From Cyclobacteriaceae bacterium (GTDB lineage Bacteria; Bacteroidota; Bacteroidia; Cytophagales; Cyclobacteriaceae), in contig JAHBUE010000001.1 of assembly GCA_019638235.1 (NCBI GenBank), positions 1,784,492-1,848,491 on the forward strand: a stretch of DNA of 64,000 bases, read 5' to 3'. Made by a program: the position numbers and the translations under genes. The notes under the pieces were generated by a model that searched no databases, was not told the DNA's origin, and saw nothing but the letters and a program-made list of their open reading frames with translations. Of the stretch, positions 2 through 11,956 are shown piece by piece. The stretch's first letter is position 1; the number at the start of each line of letters is the position of its first letter.

Positions 2-3000
2 ATAGTTGAGAATTTCAATGTGGGCGATGCCGCGCCTACACTTACCTTAACACATGTTGCTACGGATAACTCGCGTTGTGTTGCTCCGTTTAATGGCGCA
101 ATTGATCTGACAGTTGCAGGCTCTGCCGGGCCTTTTACTTTTTTGTGGAACGGGCCGGGCGGATTTTCGGCAAGCACTGAAGATATTTCAACGCTGGTTG
201 ATGGCGACTATGATGTGCTGGTAACGGATACGAACAGTGGTTGTACAGCGGTTGCTAATATTACCATTAATAATACTGCACCAACTTTAGTGTTGAGCAC
301 GATTACTACCGATAACAGCCGTTGCGAAGCGCCTTTTAATGGTGCTATTGATTTAACGGTATCGGGCTCAGCCGGTCCGTTTACGTATGCGTGGTCAGGC
401 CCCGGAGGCCCTTACACAACAGAAGATTTAGCCAACCTTCAGGATGGTACTTATAATGTGTTGGTAACAGATGTTAACAGCGACTGTACAGCATCTACCT
501 CAGTTATAATTAACAACACAGCGCCAACGCTTGCATTAAGCGTAGTTACCATTGATAACAGCCGTTGCGAAGCGCCTTTTAATGGTGCTATTGATTTAAC
601 GGTATCGGGCTCAGCCGGTCCGTTTACGTATGCGTGGTCAGGCCCCGGAGGCCCTTACACAACAGAAGATTTAGCCAACCTTCAGGATGGTACTTATAAT
701 GTGTTGGTAACAGATGTTAACAGCGACTGTACAGCATCTACCTCAGTTATAATTAACAACACAGCGCCAACGCTTGCATTAAGCGTAGTTACCATTGATA
801 ACAGCCGTTGCGAAGCGCCTTTTAATGGTGCTATTGATTTAACAGTATCGGGCTCAGCCGGTCCGTTTACGTATGCGTGGTCAGGCCCCGGAGGCCCTTA
901 CACAACAGAAGATTTATCCAACCTTCAGGATGGTACTTATAATGTATTGGTAACAGATGTTAACAGCGACTGTACAGCATCTACCTCAGTTATAATTAAC
1001 AATACAGCGCCAACGCTTGCATTAAGCGTAGTTACCATTGATAACAGCCGTTGCGAAGCGCCTTTTAATGGTGCTATTGATTTAACAGTATCGGGTTCAG
1101 CCGGGCCGTTTACGTTTGATTGGTCAGGGCCAAACGGGCCATTCAGTACGGAAGACTTGGTTAACTTACAAGATGGTACATACATCGTGACTGTTACGGA
1201 TGATATAAGCGGATGTACCGCTACACTTAATGTAGCTGTTAATAACGTTGCACCGGTATTATCGCTTAACCATATTGCAGTTGCCAATTCACAATGCGAT
1301 ACTCCAAATGGCTCTATTGATCTGACCGTATCAGGTTCAGCCGGGCCGTTTACTTTTAACTGGTCAGGCCCATCAGGGTTTACAGCCAGCACTGAGGATA
1401 TCTCCGGTTTGATTGGCGGAAGCTATACGGTAACTGTAAGGGATAATATAAGCGGATGCGAGATAGTGGAAACAATCATTGTTCCGGATGCCACAACTAC
1501 CATGACGATAACATCTGTTGTAACAGATAATGACCAGTGCACAGCGCCATTTAACGGGGCTATTGATATTACCATATCCGGTTCAGCCGGACCATTTACA
1601 TTTTTATGGAATGGCCCGAATGGTTTTTCGGCAACAACAGAAGACATTACCGTGTTGGAGAATGGTGATTATGATGTTACCGTAACGGAAACTTCTTCAG
1701 GATGTGCGGCAAGCACAACGATTACTGTCGGTGATATTCGCCCGGTATTTACGCTTTCAACTACATCAACAGATAACATTCAGTGTAATGCTCCTTTTGA
1801 TGGCGCTATTGATCTTACCGTGAGTGGTTCAGCCGGGCCGTTTCAATTTGCCTGGACAGGCCCGAATGGGTTTGTTGCAAACACAGAAGATGTAACAGCA
1901 TTAGAGCCAGGCACCTATGATGTGGTTGTAACACACACGGCCTCTCAATGTGTTCAAACAACAAGTGTTGTTATCTTAGATAACGCACCGACTCTTTCCC
2001 TGACCTCCGTAGTAACGGATAACAGCAGTTGCGTGGTTCCGTTTACAGGTGAAATTGACATAACAGTATCCGGTTCAGCCGGGCCGTTCACGTTTGCGTG
2101 GTCAGGCCCTAACAGTTTCGCAGCATCAACAGAAGATATTACAGCGTTGCAGGATGGAACCTATACAATTGTAGTTACGGATGTTCCTTCAGGTTGTACT
2201 GTCAGTGCCGACATTGTGGTTGGAAGTACAACAGTTCCTCCAATCATCAGCGCGTCAACAGTAATTGATAACGATCATTGCAACGCTCCGTTCAATGGCG
2301 CTATTTTTATAACTGTTTCCCCTGCGGGTTCTTATACATATCAGTGGAACGGCCCGAATGGTTTTAGTTCAACTGTAGAAGACATTTTAGCGCTTGAATC
2401 GGGTGCTTATAGCGTAACGGTAACCAGTACCGCTTCCGGTTGCTCTGTTACAGGCGACTTTACAGTGGGTAATACTGCCCCGGTTGTTACGGTCGTTGCC
2501 GATGGCATTACCGACAACGCATCTTGCACGGCTCCGTTTGAGGGTGCAATATCAATCACCGCTTCACCTGCCGGAAACTATACGTACTCCTGGACAGGGC
2601 CAAACGGTTTTGCGTCAAGCAGCGAAGACATAACAGCACTTGAACATGGCGATTACATGATAACGGCCACGAACACGGATTTAAACTGTTCCGTTAACGC
2701 TGTGTTTACAGTAGGCGATAACACACCAACCATCACCATAACATCACAAACTATTGTAGCTAATTCAAATTGCCAGCCTCCATTTGATGGTTCAATTGAT
2801 ATTACTGCCGGTGGAACTCCCGGCCCATATTCGTTTGACTGGATTGGCCCGTTTGGTTTTATCGGAACAGGCTCAACAATTACTGACCTTCGTTCTGGCG
2901 ATTACACGGTAACTATCGAAGATCTGACCAACGGCTGTACTGACTCTTATATATTAACAGTAGGAGATAACACACCTCCGATCACGGTAATGTTGGATTC

Positions 3001-5902
3001 TTCCGATCCGAATACAACCTGCAGTGCTCCATTTACAGGATCATTGAATATAACCGTTACCGGTACACCTGGTCCGTTTACGTTTGATTGGGATGGGCCA
3101 AATGGATTTAACGCTACTGATGAAGATATTACTGCGCTTATTCATGGCGATTATGAAGTAACGGTAACAGATACAGGATTGGGCTGTCAGACAACAGTAA
3201 CATTCACTGTAGCGGATAATACACCTGCCGTAACAGTAAGTGTAGATGATGTAACCGGTAATTCAAATTGTATCGCTCCGTTTAACGGTTCAATAACTGT
3301 TAGCGGAGGTGGAACACCCGGCCCGTTTGATTTCTCATGGATTGGCCCGAATAGTTTTGGAGGAACAGGAGCAACGATTACTGATCTGGAACCTGGCGAT
3401 TATGAAGTAACCGTAGAAGATCAGCTATTGGGTTGCTCATCAACTCTAATCATCACAGTACCTGATGTTGCTCCGGTAATTTTCATCACACAAAACACCA
3501 CACCAAACTCGAACTGTCTTGCGCCTTTCAATGGAGCGATTGAAATAACATCGGTAAGTGGAACAGCCGGCCCGTATGATTTTGAGTGGATTGGCCCGAA
3601 TGGTTTTGCATCCACTTCGCAGGATATTACTGATCTTGAACCGGGTGATTATACCGTAACGGTAAGAGATACCAACATAGGTTGCTCGAATAGTTTTGTG
3701 TTGACTGTTCCGCAAAATGCAACAACAGTTTCCATTAGCTTAGTGAACGCCATTGCAAACGACAGGTGTACCGGCCCGTTCAATGGTGCGTTAGATGTCA
3801 CCATAAGCGGAACACCCGGCCCTTACACCATCACCTGGTCAGGCCCTTCAGGATTTTCTGCTTCAACGGAAGACATCAGTTCCGTTGTTCATGGCAACTA
3901 TATTATTGTTGTTGAAGACGATCTGTTAGGCTGCATTAGTACAGCAACTTTTACTGTACCGAATGCAACAGTAGGTTGTGGCGGCCTGAATTGCTTTGCT
4001 TATACGATTACCGTAGTTGATGCCCAAACTCAACGGCCTTCATGCAGTAATCAGAATGATGGTGTTATTACATTAGATATTGTTGGATTAACGGCAGGTA
4101 ATTATATTATACAACTTATCGGAACATCGGGTACGCAAACGCAGGTAGGGCCTTCAGGTGTGTACACCTTCACCGGGCTTTCGCCTGATACTTATGAATA
4201 CCGTATTGAAGATGCAGTAGGTAATGTTTGCCAGCAGCCGTATAACTTATCTGTTCAAACTACTGTTCAGGCTATTGCCTCCGATTTTGTAGATGCCCTG
4301 TGCTTCGGTCAGCCAACCGGTCAGGCAATATTTACCGTAACCGATGGCGGCAACTCGCCTTTTGAATATTCAATTGATGGTTCAACCTGGGTTACTTTTC
4401 TTTCCGGTGCAACCATTACTACACTTCCGCCAAACGGAACATACCCGGTGCTGATACGCGATGACGCATCCGATCAATGCCCGGCAACAGTAATGGTAAC
4501 TATAAACAATACCAATCCGCAGATTACGGCAAGCCTTACAGCTTCGCCTGCAACCTGTAATAATAATGATGGCGCTATAACCATTGATGCACTTCCGGCA
4601 GGTGGTGATGGCGGGCCTTATACGTTCCAGTTTGGATTGGCAGGTTCGGAAGTTCCTGTTGGGTTGCCTGCTGGAAATGTGTTTAGCAATCTCGCTGCCG
4701 GTAATTATAATTTTATTGTAACCGATAATGCCGGTTGCCAACAGGTGTTTGCGCGCACGGTAACATTCCCCGGTTTTGTAAATACTGCTCCTCCGGTAAT
4801 CAATGGCCCGGATTGTACTTCTGGCGGAACAAATGGAAACATCATTCTTACTTTATTGGATGTTGGCACGTATGAATATGCCATAAGCACTGACCCGTTA
4901 TTTATCCCTTCACCTGGCGATTATGATCCAGTAGGTGGGTTAACACTTATTATCCCGAACCTTACCAATGGAGATTATTTTGTATGGTTACGATCCTTAG
5001 GATCGCAATGCCCTACCAAACTTGGACCGCTTACGGTTAGCGGAGTGTTTGAAGTAAGCTTTGCCGCTACTTCTACCAATGAAGTTTGTTTTGGTGATGG
5101 CGGAGCGATTACACTCACCGGCATTACGGGCGCACCTGCGTTGGATTATACCTATACACTTGTATTGAATGGTGTGCCGGAAACAAATACCATTACCTTC
5201 CTGGAAGCGCTTGGTTCCTTTACGCGTAACAACTTAGCCATTGGCAGCTACCAACTGCAAATCAGTCAGGATCAGACTTCGCTGAACGGATGTGTGGTAT
5301 CAACTAACTTCCAGTCGTTTACTATTACCGGCCCTTCTTCGGCTTTGGGTATTTCAGGTGTGGAGAACGTTATGGAATCTTATCCTGATTTGCCGACCGG
5401 TTCCGTGCGTGTGGTGCTGAACGAGAGCGGAGAAGAAGACTACGAGATTAAAATAGAACTTACGCAGCCGATATTTGGCGGCCAGTTCTTCTTCCACGAT
5501 TTCGCTTTAGTGAATCGCGACCCTTCATCCTTGCGTATGCAGACTCAATTTACTAATCTGTATGCCGGCATTTATGAAGTAACCGTTCGTGATGCGTTAG
5601 GTTGTGAGGTGGTTGTTGAAATAGAGATACCGTTGGATACGGATATTTTCATCCCGAACATTTTTACACCAAACGGTGATGGGCATAACGACACCTTTAC
5701 CATTCGTAATTTACCAGATAACGGTGCGCGACTGATTGTGTCTAACCGTTGGGGTAAGCAGGTGTATTCATCCAATAACTATACTAACGATAGCGCCTGG
5801 GATGGTGGCAACGAATCGGATGGTGTGTACTATTACCGCTTGCAGGCCGATGGCCAGGTGTTTACCGGTTGGGTTGAAATTCTCAGAGGAGTAAAACCTT
5901 AA
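2..5902 (+). CDS. giant SprB-repeat surface adhesin, T9SS type B cargo (5' end outside window)
   Basis: The reading frame is open to the left edge and the residues before the first GTG (position 20) continue the repeat pattern, so the true start lies outside the window. The visible part is about 1,960 residues. It holds sixteen modules of roughly 75-85 residues, each with a C-x-x-PF-x-G core, a S/T-GPF or GPY turn, a W-x-GP-x-GF motif and a closing D-G-x-Y-x-V-x-V-T-D strand, which is the SprB-repeat pattern. Four or five more divergent SprB-like modules follow to about residue 1,780. The last 88 residues (from about 5636) begin FIPNIFTPNGDG and form the gliding-associated CHU_C domain used as a type B sorting signal of T9SS. 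The two cysteines per module may pair. Expected role: secreted cell-surface adhesin, as for SprB in Flavobacterium gliding. The stop overlaps the convergent downstream gene by 4 bp. Confidence 0.93.
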   Translation: MVENFNVGDAAPTLTLTHVATDNSRCVAPFNGAIDLTVAGSAGPFTFLWNGPGGFSASTEDISTLVDGDYDVLVTDTNSGCTAVANITINNTAPTLVLSTITTDNSRCEAPFNGAIDLTVSGSAGPFTYAWSGPGGPYTTEDLANLQDGTYNVLVTDVNSDCTASTSVIINNTAPTLALSVVTIDNSRCEAPFNGAIDLTVSGSAGPFTYAWSGPGGPYTTEDLANLQDGTYNVLVTDVNSDCTASTSVIINNTAPTLALSVVTIDNSRCEAPFNGAIDLTVSGSAGPFTYAWSGPGGPYTTEDLSNLQDGTYNVLVTDVNSDCTASTSVIINNTAPTLALSVVTIDNSRCEAPFNGAIDLTVSGSAGPFTFDWSGPNGPFSTEDLVNLQDGTYIVTVTDDISGCTATLNVAVNNVAPVLSLNHIAVANSQCDTPNGSIDLTVSGSAGPFTFNWSGPSGFTASTEDISGLIGGSYTVTVRDNISGCEIVETIIVPDATTTMTITSVVTDNDQCTAPFNGAIDITISGSAGPFTFLWNGPNGFSATTEDITVLENGDYDVTVTETSSGCAASTTITVGDIRPVFTLSTTSTDNIQCNAPFDGAIDLTVSGSAGPFQFAWTGPNGFVANTEDVTALEPGTYDVVVTHTASQCVQTTSVVILDNAPTLSLTSVVTDNSSCVVPFTGEIDITVSGSAGPFTFAWSGPNSFAASTEDITALQDGTYTIVVTDVPSGCTVSADIVVGSTTVPPIISASTVIDNDHCNAPFNGAIFITVSPAGSYTYQWNGPNGFSSTVEDILALESGAYSVTVTSTASGCSVTGDFTVGNTAPVVTVVADGITDNASCTAPFEGAISITASPAGNYTYSWTGPNGFASSSEDITALEHGDYMITATNTDLNCSVNAVFTVGDNTPTITITSQTIVANSNCQPPFDGSIDITAGGTPGPYSFDWIGPFGFIGTGSTITDLRSGDYTVTIEDLTNGCTDSYILTVGDNTPPITVMLDSSDPNTTCSAPFTGSLNITVTGTPGPFTFDWDGPNGFNATDEDITALIHGDYEVTVTDTGLGCQTTVTFTVADNTPAVTVSVDDVTGNSNCIAPFNGSITVSGGGTPGPFDFSWIGPNSFGGTGATITDLEPGDYEVTVEDQLLGCSSTLIITVPDVAPVIFITQNTTPNSNCLAPFNGAIEITSVSGTAGPYDFEWIGPNGFASTSQDITDLEPGDYTVTVRDTNIGCSNSFVLTVPQNATTVSISLVNAIANDRCTGPFNGALDVTISGTPGPYTITWSGPSGFSASTEDISSVVHGNYIIVVEDDLLGCISTATFTVPNATVGCGGLNCFAYTITVVDAQTQRPSCSNQNDGVITLDIVGLTAGNYIIQLIGTSGTQTQVGPSGVYTFTGLSPDTYEYRIEDAVGNVCQQPYNLSVQTTVQAIASDFVDALCFGQPTGQAIFTVTDGGNSPFEYSIDGSTWVTFLSGATITTLPPNGTYPVLIRDDASDQCPATVMVTINNTNPQITASLTASPATCNNNDGAITIDALPAGGDGGPYTFQFGLAGSEVPVGLPAGNVFSNLAAGNYNFIVTDNAGCQQVFARTVTFPGFVNTAPPVINGPDCTSGGTNGNIILTLLDVGTYEYAISTDPLFIPSPGDYDPVGGLTLIIPNLTNGDYFVWLRSLGSQCPTKLGPLTVSGVFEVSFAATSTNEVCFGDGGAITLTGITGAPALDYTYTLVLNGVPETNTITFLEALGSFTRNNLAIGSYQLQISQDQTSLNGCVVSTNFQSFTITGPSSALGISGVENVMESYPDLPTGSVRVVLNESGEEDYEIKIELTQPIFGGQFFFHDFALVNRDPSSLRMQTQFTNLYAGIYEVTVRDALGCEVVVEIEIPLDTDIFIPNIFTPNGDGHNDTFTIRNLPDNGARLIVSNRWGKQVYSSNNYTNDSAWDGGNESDGVYYYRLQADGQVFTGWVEILRGVKP
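311..1118 (+). repeat. 243-bp near-identical tandem repeats inside the adhesin gene
   Basis: The word GATAACAGCCGTTGCGAAGC starts at 311, 554, 797 and 1040, exactly 243 bp (81 codons) apart. The first three units are almost identical at DNA level, differing by a few silent or single-residue changes (for example A to S in the LANLQ motif of the third unit). The fourth unit follows the pattern to about 1118 and then diverges. All other modules of this gene differ from one another, so these units are recent duplications. The unit is in frame, so gain or loss would change adhesin length without breaking the gene. Confidence 0.95.
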
Positions 5903-8429: not shown

Positions 8430-8786
8430 GTGGAAGAGAACAAGACCAATGGCAGAGATGAGATTTACTCTGCGAAAGTAAAAGCCGGTAAAAGGACTTA
8501 TTTTTTTGATGTGAAATCAACGCGCTCCAATGATTTCTACCTGACCATCACCGAAAGTAAGAAACGATTTAAGGAGGATGGGTTTACCTACGAAAAACAC
8601 AAGATTTTTCTGTATAAAGAAGATTTCGGGAAGTTTATGGAAGCCCTTAACGACACCGTTAACCATGTAAAACATGAGCTTTTGCCTGATGTGGATTTTG
8701 ACCAGTTTGACCATGTGCACGAGCACCATGATGGCGAGGAGGCTACGGCCAAAGCCGATGATAGTGGCGAATTGAAGTGGGATTAA
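8430..8786 (+). CDS. DUF3276 / PUR-alpha-like protein
   Basis: 118 residues starting with GTG at 8430 (VEENKTNGRDEIYSAK). Residues 10-85 carry the pattern of small Bacteroidota and spirochaete PUR-domain proteins: IYSAKVKAGKRTYFFDVK, then a second strand set with DFYLTITESKKRF and KIFLYKEDFGKF. PUR domains bind single-stranded nucleic acid with purine-rich preference. The C-terminal tail (about residues 86-118) is acidic and His-rich and probably disordered. It is monocistronic, with a terminator 23 bp downstream. Binding is inferred from the family only. Confidence 0.8.
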   Translation: MEENKTNGRDEIYSAKVKAGKRTYFFDVKSTRSNDFYLTITESKKRFKEDGFTYEKHKIFLYKEDFGKFMEALNDTVNHVKHELLPDVDFDQFDHVHEHHDGEEATAKADDSGELKWD

Positions 8787-8907: not shown

Positions 8908-10005
8908 ATGAGTTTGCAGTGTGGAATTGTAGGATTGCCGAATGTTGGAAAATCAACCTTATTTAATGCGCTTTCCAATAACAAGGCCGAAGCCGCAAAT
9001 TTCCCGTTTTGTACTATTGAGCCAAACGTAGGGGTAATTTCAGTACCCGACCCCCGCTTGAAAGTTCTGGAAGGATTGGTGAACCCGCAACGTATTCTAC
9101 CAACCACCATCGAGTTTGTTGATATTGCCGGTTTGGTGAAAGGCGCCAGCAAAGGCGAGGGGCTGGGCAACCAGTTCTTAGCCAACATCCGCGAGGTAGA
9201 TGCCATTGTGCACGTGGTGCGTTGCTTCGATAACGACAACATTGTACATGTTGATGGAAGAGTTAATCCTGTGGCAGATAAAGAAATCATTGACACGGAG
9301 TTACAGCTTAAAGATTTAGAATCGGTTGAAAAGAAAATAACCCGCTTAGAGAAAATTGCGAAAAGTGGAGATGCCAAAGCGAAGAAGGAATTGGCTACAC
9401 TTATTATATATAAAGAAGCATTATTGGCAGGTAAAAATGCCCGTGCGGCAGAGGTGAGCGAGGACGATAAAAAGGCTATTGAAGACCTTCAGTTGCTTAC
9501 TGCCAAACCCGTGCTTTATGTGGCTAATGTGGATGAGGGGTCTGTACTTACCGGCAATAAGCATGTTGACGCGCTACGCGAATTGGTAAAAACCGAGGGT
9601 GCAGAAGTAGTCATTATCTCTGCCGCCATTGAAGCGCAGATTGCCGAGTTGGAAAGTGAAGAAGACCGTGAGACCTTTTTAAAGGAGTACGGCCTGGACG
9701 AGTCTGGCCTGCATAAACTCATCCGGGCTTCGTACAGCCTGCTTAACCTGATAACCTACTTTACGGCCGGTGAGAAGGAAGTAAGGGCCTGGACGATAAA
9801 ACGGGGCTGGAAAGCACCTCAGGCAGCCGGGGTAATCCATACCGACTTTGAAAAAGGCTTCATAAAAGCCGAGGTTATCAAATTAGCTGATTATCAGCAG
9901 TATAAAACAGAAGCTGGCTGTCGGGAGGCCGGAAAAATGGCCATTGAAGGCAAAGAATACGTGGTAGCTGATGGCGATATCATGCATTTTCGCTTTAATG
10001 TGTAA
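8908..10005 (+). CDS. ychF: redox-regulated ATPase YchF (OLA1 family)
   Basis: 365 residues, the normal length. It has the G1 motif GLPNVGKST near residue 8, a switch region with [17 protein letters not shown] near 70, and NVDE in place of the usual NKxD at G4, which is the change that gives YchF/OLA1 preference for ATP over GTP. The C-terminal TGS domain ends with the expected [13 protein letters not shown]. YchF associates with the ribosome and the proteasome-like machinery in other organisms and its exact role is debated. A TATATTTG at 8872-8879 fits the -7 element; a convincing -33 box was not found. Confidence 0.97.
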
Positions 10006-10124
10006 ATATTCCTTACATCGGGCTTTCCTGATTTTTTACTTTTTCGTAGTTTTATAACCCGCTCATTATCAGGTTTAAGCGGTGCTTTAGGTTTTGTATT
10101 TTTTAACCTCATTTTTTAAACGTC

Positions 10125-10928
10125 TTGAGAGCCAGGATTATTTTTTCGCTGAAGAACAGGGGGGCTTATGTTCCTTTTCACCACCAGTATTTGTTGGCGC
10201 AATTCATTAAAGGACTGTTAATATTTGGCCCTGATAAATCGTATCAGACCTACACACAGTTTAATTTCTCAGGGCTTAAAGGTCAGACCAAAATCAGCCG
10301 TAAGGGATTACACTTTTACTCATCTAAAGTAACACTGGTGTTTGCTTGCAGCGACCGCGAGTTTATGAGCTACTTTACGGCCCAGTTGTTTGAGCAAAAA
10401 GACATTATGATTGGCAGCCTGCACTTAGTGCCCGATTCCATTGAAGAAGAAATGCCGGTGATCATTGATGCGGAAGCCCGGTTTTTGTGCATATCGCCAA
10501 TTGTTCCGGTTACTACCTCTTTTAATACCGAACACGGCAAGAAATTCATTTCCCCCGAAAGCGATGAGTTCTCCGATTTGTTGTACGACTCCACCCTTGC
10601 ACGCATGGAGCAAACCGGTAAGTTTACTACCGAGCAATTAGCTTCGTTTTATAAATTTCAGCTTGTGCCCGACCCCGGTTATTTGCAACGCTTGCAGGCA
10701 GCCGGTAAGAAATTTGCGCGCATCTACCCGCTTTATGATAACGATGTAAAATTTGAAGTGCGCGGATATACCTTTCCCTTCACCTTATATGCCGCCCCGG
10801 AAGTGCAACGCTTTGTGTATGAAAACGGCCTGGGCTACTTCTGCCACAAAGGCTTTGGCATGTTGGATATAGCCGGGGGTGATGCTTCTCTGAAACAGAA
10901 CTCGCAGCGCGATGCGGTGTATGCGTAG
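10125..10928 (+). CDS. cas6: orphan CRISPR endoribonuclease Cas6-like protein
   Basis: 267 residues from a TTG at 10125 (MRARIIFSLKNRG), the only start that keeps the family N-terminus. The fold signals are the Cas6 ferredoxin-like start (MRxRIxFSL), VPFHHQYLLAQF near residue 16, a FLCISPIVPV strand near 125, and the C-terminal glycine-rich loop GLGYFCHKGFGML near 240, which is the classic RAMP/Cas6 G-x-G-x5-GFG motif. Cas6 normally cuts CRISPR precursor RNA. By eye-alignment with the Pyrococcus enzyme, the catalytic Tyr falls on a Lys (in AQFIKGLL) and the catalytic His region (YQTYTQFNF) has no His, so catalysis in the usual way is doubtful. No array or other cas gene is in the window. The gene ends 5 bp before a glycosyltransferase gene. 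Confidence 0.82.
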   Translation: MRARIIFSLKNRGAYVPFHHQYLLAQFIKGLLIFGPDKSYQTYTQFNFSGLKGQTKISRKGLHFYSSKVTLVFACSDREFMSYFTAQLFEQKDIMIGSLHLVPDSIEEEMPVIIDAEARFLCISPIVPVTTSFNTEHGKKFISPESDEFSDLLYDSTLARMEQTGKFTTEQLASFYKFQLVPDPGYLQRLQAAGKKFARIYPLYDNDVKFEVRGYTFPFTLYAAPEVQRFVYENGLGYFCHKGFGMLDIAGGDASLKQNSQRDAVYA

Positions 10929-10933
10929 TAACT

Positions 10934-11956
10934 ATGAACAACGGCACGGAAGACTTTGTGGCAACGAAATTTTCGATTATCGTACCGGTGTTCAACAGAC
11001 CCAATGAGGTTGATGAACTCTTAGAAAGCCTCACCCACCAGACCTACACGGATTTTGAAGTAGTAATTGTAGAAGATGGCTCTGCACAAAGCAGCGATAA
11101 GGTAGTAGAAAAGTTTTCGGATACCTTGTCTATAAGCTATTATTTTAAGCCTAATACCGGTCCGGGAGATTCCAGGAATTATGGAATGCGAAAGGCAAAG
11201 GGCAATTATTTTATTATTCTCGATTCTGACTGCATTCTTCCGCCCAACTATATGCAAGAGGTGCACACGGCACTTAGTAACGATTATGTAGATTGTTTTG
11301 GAGGAGAGGACGCGGCTTCAGACAGTTTTACGGATGTGCAGAAAGCTATAAATTTTACCATGACTTCAGTGCTGACAACCGGAGGTGTGCGTGGATCTTC
11401 CGAAAAACTGGGCAAGTTTCAGCCCCGTAGTTTTAATATGGGCATCTCGAAGAAGGCTTTTGAAGCATCTGCAGGATTTGGAAAGATACACCCCGGTGAA
11501 GACCCGGATTTGTCGATGCGTTTGTGGAAATTAGGTTTTCAAACCCGGCTCTTTAATAACGTGTATGTGTTTCATAAAAGACGCATAGACTGGAGCAAGT
11601 TTAAAACGCAGGTTAATAAGTTTGGCAAAGCGCGGCCGATACTGGATAGTTGGCATCCGGAGTATCGCAGAATTACGTTTTGGTTTCCCACGTTGTTTTT
11701 AGCCGGATTTATTTTTTCGGTTTGCGTAGCGCTGACGGGGTATCCGCACGTGTTGTGGATGTATTTCCTTTATTTCCTCATGTGTTTTTTAATCAGCACC
11801 TTTCAGAACAAGAGTGTTAGCATTGGGTTTCTTTCGGTGTATGCAGTAGCCATTCAGTTTTGGGGATACGGAACCGGTTTTTTGCTTTCCTTCTGGAATA
11901 TTTCAGTTCTAAATAAGAAACCCCAGGAGGCATTCCCGGAGCTTTTTTTTCGGTAG
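10934..11956 (+). CDS. family 2 glycosyltransferase with C-terminal membrane segments
   Basis: 340 residues. The GT-A nucleotide-sugar fold is clear: FSIIVPVFNRPNEVDELL near residue 13, VVIVEDGS near 43, an acidic metal-binding motif ILDSDC near 97, and a GEDPDLSMRL acceptor/base region near 190. After about residue 250 there are two or three hydrophobic segments (FPTLFLAGFIFSVCVAL and MYFLYFLMCFLIS), so it is likely anchored in the inner membrane. Substrate cannot be read from sequence. It starts 5 bp after cas6 and may share its transcript. No other polysaccharide genes lie nearby. Confidence 0.9.
   Translation: MNNGTEDFVATKFSIIVPVFNRPNEVDELLESLTHQTYTDFEVVIVEDGSAQSSDKVVEKFSDTLSISYYFKPNTGPGDSRNYGMRKAKGNYFIILDSDCILPPNYMQEVHTALSNDYVDCFGGEDAASDSFTDVQKAINFTMTSVLTTGGVRGSSEKLGKFQPRSFNMGISKKAFEASAGFGKIHPGEDPDLSMRLWKLGFQTRLFNNVYVFHKRRIDWSKFKTQVNKFGKARPILDSWHPEYRRITFWFPTLFLAGFIFSVCVALTGYPHVLWMYFLYFLMCFLISTFQNKSVSIGFLSVYAVAIQFWGYGTGFLLSFWNISVLNKKPQEAFPELFFR

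Follow-up and report, generated by a model that had tools for sequence, protein, structure and literature searches.

The gene at positions 10,125–10,928 (+ strand) of the 64,000-nucleotide window, by which the whole stretch of Cyclobacteriaceae DNA analysed here is meant, encodes a 267-residue protein that derives from Cas6 and is a member of a non-CRISPR Cas6 family of Cytophagales, a large order of environmental bacteria. It starts with TTG and ends with the stop codon at 10,926–10,928. The family has kept the Cas6 fold, exists as one syntenic, vertically inherited gene outside CRISPR loci, is under strong constraint, has no catalytic triad and occurs in genomes that have no cas1. The reading that best accounts for these observations, and which is considered probable, is that a Cas6 was domesticated in Cytophagales as a single syntenic gene, whose product would work independently of CRISPR and at a low level, presumably binding RNA without cleaving it. 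If this is true, a Cas protein stripped of its known active site has become a core cellular gene, passed on vertically and fixed in a large part of an order, and this would be a clean example of exaptation, different from those on record. The available part of PMC8730458 reports such reuse of CRISPR parts for transposons, plasmids, viruses and guide RNAs, and a Cas6 fixed outside CRISPR is not described in the available parts of PMC8730458, PMC3150331, PMC3652601 and PMC11697453. Additionally, no paper on the Cytophagales family was recognised in a literature coverage largely without subscription journals. The family also stands as a defined candidate RNA-binding protein in this order.

The Cas6 signals that the first-pass annotation had reported in this frame were borne out by profile searches, in which Pfam Cas_Cas6_C (7.1e-19, 69 bits against a cut-off of 23) and PADLOC Cas6b (4.6e-29) matched the window protein well above chance. 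TIGR01877 also matched it (5.7e-14), with a score of 53.0 bits, just below the curated cut-off of 58.65, which was exceeded by five of the seven other family members scanned. The PADLOC profile PDLC01782 gave 88–100 bits in the four family members examined versus 177–214 bits in the five PF01881-type CRISPR Cas6 proteins scanned. A ferredoxin-like start and a glycine-rich loop had also been proposed, and Pfam, the structure model and the alignment agree on a double ferredoxin-like fold with a C-terminal glycine-rich loop, the latter encoded by codons 235–248 (10,827–10,868, +). Fold, C-terminal domain and loop are common to the family and to CRISPR Cas6 as defined by PF01881, TIGR01877 and PADLOC Cas6b, as are the residues P17, F48, S49, S124 and P125 and, within the loop, G235, G237 and G243–M246. 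Unlike CRISPR Cas6, the family has neither the catalytic triad nor a cas operon, lies near ychF and carries 44 near-invariant positions of its own that are rare in the comparison Cas6.

An AlphaFold2 model computed from 68 alignment rows (A2) reached a pLDDT of 72 and a pTM of 0.74, and was weak (pLDDT below 50) at residues 125–134, 198–213 and 241–245, regions that take in some of the glycine-rich loop and some of the basic motif. Its top matches were the solved Cas6 structures 5yi6, 3qjj, 3ufc, 3i4h and 3pkm, with Z scores of 18.4–20.2 over 212–226 residues, and Foldseek E-values against Cas6 went down to 5e-13. When the family profile was compared with structure chains, 3ufc ranked best (1.6e-15), followed by 5yi6 and, in third place, by PH0350 of Pyrococcus horikoshii (2e-13). 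We take 3ufc and PH0350 (3qjj/3qjp) to be non-catalytic Cas6-related proteins of Pyrococcus and count them as the most similar kind known. Both are near-best matches of the model (Z 19.6–20.0) and, judging by eye from the alignments, all three triad residues (Tyr, His and Lys) seem to be missing from them too, so that a Cas6 fold without triad is found in the window family as in these proteins. They differ in that the Pyrococcus proteins seem to retain more between helix 1 and strand 2, where the family is about 12 residues shorter than Bacteroidota Cas6, and we know of no order-wide syntenic core status for the non-catalytic Cas6 of Pyrococcus. The latter binds CRISPR repeat RNA. Judging from its Cas6 fold, it is reasonably likely that the Cytophagales protein binds RNA, in which case a cellular RNA would lie in the groove that receives repeat RNA in Cas6, with no cleavage.

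The Tyr and His of the archaeal triad had already seemed to be missing from the window protein, and they are absent from the whole family, none of the 46 orthologues having either. This was verified in an alignment of the 46 family members with 26 other Bacteroidota Cas6, in which the P. furiosus numbering came from a profile alignment and from the triad given in the available part of PMC3652601. The comparison proteins were gathered partly through similarity to the Cytophagales family and consist of five from cas regions or second matches of relatives and 21 matches from the phylum sample (L110–L130) with uninspected gene neighbourhoods; with this composition, the column of P. furiosus Tyr31 holds Y in 24 of the 26 and in none of the 46. 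In the window protein this column is occupied by Lys29 (codon at 10,209–10,211, +), and across the family by K in 35, R in four, Q in three, D in two, T in one and S in one. The His46 column holds H in 26/26 comparison Cas6 and a gap in 46/46 family members, so the His segment is missing, which goes beyond mere mutation. An intact catalytic His elsewhere in the fold was not seen, since the alignment shows the segment that bears it deleted rather than displaced, the stretch between the triad columns being mostly 18 residues long in family members, as against 30 in comparison Cas6. The third residue is gone too, the column of P. furiosus Lys52 being K in 25/26 comparison Cas6 versus 2/46 family members.

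Absence of the triad is no proof of absent cleavage, since Cas6 enzymes without the His exist: as described in the available part of PMC3652601, that of Sulfolobus solfataricus cuts without it, through Lys25, Lys28, Lys51 and Arg231. The S. solfataricus enzyme (3zfv, 4ill) resembles the family in missing the catalytic His and having basic residues in its place, according to the same part of PMC3652601, but it is a dimeric, CRISPR-associated crRNA enzyme and a far weaker match of the model (Z 8.1–8.3). The family could therefore still be an endoribonuclease, acting on a cellular RNA through a rebuilt active site. The glycine-rich loop might, for example, form such a site together with H20, K52 and K195/K196/R199, or a lysine site like that of the S. 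solfataricus enzyme might serve. In fact, H20, K52, K195, K196, R199 and R213 are invariant in 46/46 orthologues, H19 is found in 44/46, and 39/46 carry K or R at the Tyr column. On the other hand, that column is neither K nor R in the remaining 7/46, K is kept at the P. furiosus Lys52 column in no more than two, and the remaining residues resemble no known Cas6 active site, which leaves a rebuilt nuclease unlikely, though worth keeping in view on account of the S. solfataricus precedent.

The same alignment bears on whether the triad was lost or was never there. A quick, unrooted tree with long branches, used solely for its two-group split, separated the family from the 26 other Bacteroidota Cas6 with an SH-aLRT of 100. 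Because the tree is unrooted, the direction of triad change is unproven, and this leaves some room for a RAMP lineage that never had the triad and is not a derived Cas6. Such an origin is very improbable, given that the family is homologous over its full length to the triad-bearing Cas6 of P. furiosus and Bacteroidota and that, in the samples searched, it is limited to part of one order. Since the homologous Cas6 conserve the triad, descent from a Cas6 with loss of the triad is the simpler path.

Comparisons of close relatives indicated that the protein is strongly constrained. Synonymous to nonsynonymous changes were counted as 83:2, 109:6, 90:5 and 120:25, and the four of eight pairs with finite dS, the other four being saturated, gave dN/dS values of 0.004, 0.007, 0.009 and 0.021. 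The range of 0.004–0.021 rules out a pseudogene. The 44 family-specific positions include R4, H19, H20, K52-G53-Q54, E109, D151, K195, K196, R199, E211, R213, Y215, T216 and D248, several of which cluster in motifs: Lys52-Gly53-Gln54 (codons at 10,278–10,286, +), invariant across the 46 orthologues and seldom present in the 26 comparison proteins; the invariant, family-specific basic motif Lys195-Lys196-x-x-Arg199 (10,707–10,721, +); and the motif Glu211-Val-Arg213-Gly-Tyr-Thr216, defined in the orthologue alignment (10,755–10,772, +). Many of the 44 are hydrophobic or acidic (E107, E109, D147, D151, D248), which would also fit a protein interface, so that the double ferredoxin fold might serve a structural protein or subunit that binds protein rather than RNA. 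The invariant basic residues (R2, R4, K52, K195, K196, R199, R213) and the retained loop would suit a nucleic acid better, and a protein-binding role is accordingly regarded as improbable next to the RNA-binding one.

As to distribution, an orthologue was present in 46 of 59 relatives, with identities to the window protein of 43–94% in a 37-row alignment. In an order-wide sample of Cytophagales, 179 of 391 genomes matched; 173 matches, at E 3.9e-69 or better, were strong, and six, with E-values between 2e-11 and 2.5e-5, were weak. The gene was found in 84 of the 87 genomes of its own family in this sample, with three misses among the genomes listed, and other families of the order, including f11 and f13, were without it among the genomes listed, weak matches apart. 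In a sample of the phylum, 58 of 392 genomes matched; the nine strong matches (E 4e-125 or better) all belonged to the own family, and the remaining 49 had E-values of 2e-23 or weaker. A scan of named genomes recovered 371 relatives among 493 pattern matches, and the best 80 of the 371, all titled Bacteroidota, include Ohtaekwangia koreensis, Chryseolinea serpens and Fulvivirga sediminis. The gene had been called an orphan, which is too modest in that it is conserved and syntenic across hundreds of species.

The conserved upstream neighbour is ychF (8,908–10,005, +), found in 35 of 43 loci, preceded by a small conserved frame two genes upstream (cluster 2; 8,430–8,786, +), which we take to be a PUR-type DUF3276 protein and which is found in 34 of the 43; the genes of clusters 3 and 4 are each present in 29/43. 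This chromosomal position near ychF looks vertically inherited, in contrast to the mobile habit of cas genes. A link with the GT2 glycosyltransferase gene at 10,934–11,956 (+), which had been singled out as lying 5 bp downstream, was rejected: the 5-bp spacing after the stop codon was confirmed, but such a gene occupies that place in 1/43 loci, and since no homologue exists in the other 42 loci compared, the arrangement is local and the gene stands outside the system. In this genome alone among the 43 loci, it separates the Cas6-like gene from its usual downstream neighbour.

A mobile origin was likewise rejected, as no PHROG match and no phage record were found and viral contigs gave 29 pattern matches with no relatives among them. 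Among 72,556 plasmid records, a single one carries a family member, and it is a 602-kb replicon of Bernardetia. On this secondary replicon the gene (L211:5001–5813) lies amid metabolic genes, away from ychF, and its annotation there reads "CRISPR-associated endoribonuclease Cas6"; the 10.8 kb around it contain no further cas gene. Automatic naming of this kind, which passing NCBI's cut-off (5/7 members scanned) favours, may make genomes seem to hold class 1 parts that they lack.

Within the window, the absence of CRISPR repeats and of other cas genes noted at first held up, as a scan for array-like repeats (18-mers in at least three copies at 45–95 nt spacing) was empty and the Cas1 and Cas6_C matches of the genome add no second cas gene there. 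The genome (3.66 Mb, 99% complete, six contigs) encodes one Cas6_C protein, which is the window protein, and one Cas1, and it has no match to Pfam PF10040. An array does exist elsewhere in the genome, which corrects the first-pass annotation, in a type II-C-like locus at L082:6488–15700 (C1, about 1,170,487–1,179,699) with 40 repeats at 66-nt spacing, Cas1, a Cas2-like frame and a 1468-residue Cas9, the names Cas9, Cas2 and II-C being assigned by eye and presumptive. A 216-residue frame (L082:10644–11294), presumably related to REP-associated transposases to judge by eye, sits between cas1 and cas9 in that locus. Type II systems use RNase III and tracrRNA rather than Cas6, so there is no CRISPR client in the own genome among the markers tested. 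A class 1 operon elsewhere that lacks its own Cas6, which would have offered such a client, was not seen, PF03787 and PF09704 having no match in the genome; these two families constitute the whole class 1 marker set, with Cas10, Cas3 and other Cas7 families outside it. By the same two markers and the repeat scan, the class 1 cas operon or array that would be expected of a CRISPR Cas6 is missing beside the window gene.

Across the order sample, Cas1 was present in 86 of the 173 carriers and absent in 87, and it was present in 69 of 218 non-carriers, a positive association (Fisher p 4e-4, kinship ignored). The same tendency appears among the 59 relatives, in which Cas1 was found in 26/46 carriers versus 2/13 non-carriers (p 0.012, kinship ignored). 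The non-carriers include small-genome families and entire families without the gene. This association runs against the CRISPR-independent reading and is not nothing. It could mean that the protein works in trans for CRISPR systems elsewhere in the genome, either by binding their crRNA or by processing it, an explanation that is nevertheless hardly credible in view of the 87 carriers without Cas1, of an own genome in which the type II-C locus is the only one among what was found, and of the Cas6 candidates that class 1 loci of relatives encode themselves. In the own family, where the gene is near-universal, Cas1 was found in 34/84 carriers and absent in 50/84. Motif scanning of the cas regions retrieved from relatives identified own Cas6 candidates in 11 class 1 loci of nine genomes (two loci each in G025 and G029, one each in G028, G034, G035, G036, G046, G050 and G052), and revealed none in what was retrieved of G026, G039 and G058. 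One protein each from G025, G028, G034, G035, G036, G050 and G052 was examined by Pfam and PADLOC, and 7/7 were Cas6 or Cas6b, the G035 protein sitting on a different contig from its motif-scan candidate. In G034, a second frame of 218 residues with a glycine-rich C-terminus (L048:8157–8813) adjoins the CRISPR Cas6.

It had been suggested beforehand that a Cas6 was recruited for another RNA-binding role; the part of this proposal that places the role outside CRISPR is well supported by synteny, near-universal presence in the own family with or without Cas1, strong purifying selection and triad loss in 46/46 orthologues, and the RNA-binding part is plausible from the fold. The job of the family is probably related to RNA rather than to immunity.

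Regarding expression, the start codons of the best 80 of the 371 homologues were TTG in 47 and GTG in 32, with one frame-offset row reading AGTG and no ATG, versus an ATG start for ychF in 75/75 of the same loci. A tree of 68 rows required at least nine switches between TTG and GTG and none to ATG; in the 46-orthologue set, 4/46 begin with ATG. The leader between the ychF stop and the start codon (10,006–10,124, +) comprises a promoter-like conserved block and then a T-rich stretch with T6 runs. These runs number 2.59 per 94-nt leader, compared with 1.07 after shuffling and 0.29 for ychF, and at least two were found in 46% of 41 leaders versus 3% of 230 other leaders (43 loci). They flank the start codon, and 56 runs among 80 leaders end at codons 7–8. 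We read the non-ATG start and the leader runs, both sequence features, as a sign that selection may favour low or regulated translation. RNA structure at –75 to +25 was not in excess, with a mean z of –0.24 for 81 leaders, and values in the coding region were similar. A conserved leader hairpin was considered as RNA target and was unsupported, the RNAalifold energy being about –0.9 on 29 leaders. The only Rfam match in the window at gathering scores was a tRNA, and none lay close to the Cas6-like gene.

The T6 runs, U6 in the mRNA, offer a lead to a candidate RNA ligand. Under the favoured reading of a domesticated, non-cleaving Cas6, the protein would act at low abundance, either in post-transcriptional regulation or as an RNA chaperone, and its own mRNA, with U6 runs on both sides of the non-ATG start, would be a candidate target through which its own level might be held down. 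The fuller version of this proposal, in which a former CRISPR RNA-processing enzyme now serves as a conserved RNA-binding regulator independent of CRISPR, its level limited by the non-ATG start and possibly also by its binding to U6 runs of its own leader, could go either way, and autoregulation through the leader is a doubtful element of it. Non-ATG starts also mark the small cluster 2 frame: of its 31 leaders scored by longest frame, 28 precede a GTG and three a TTG, so that two nearby genes share conserved non-ATG starts. Finally, the window opens (positions 20–5,902) with a highly repetitive protein of 1960 residues, whose predicted location is probably extracellular.
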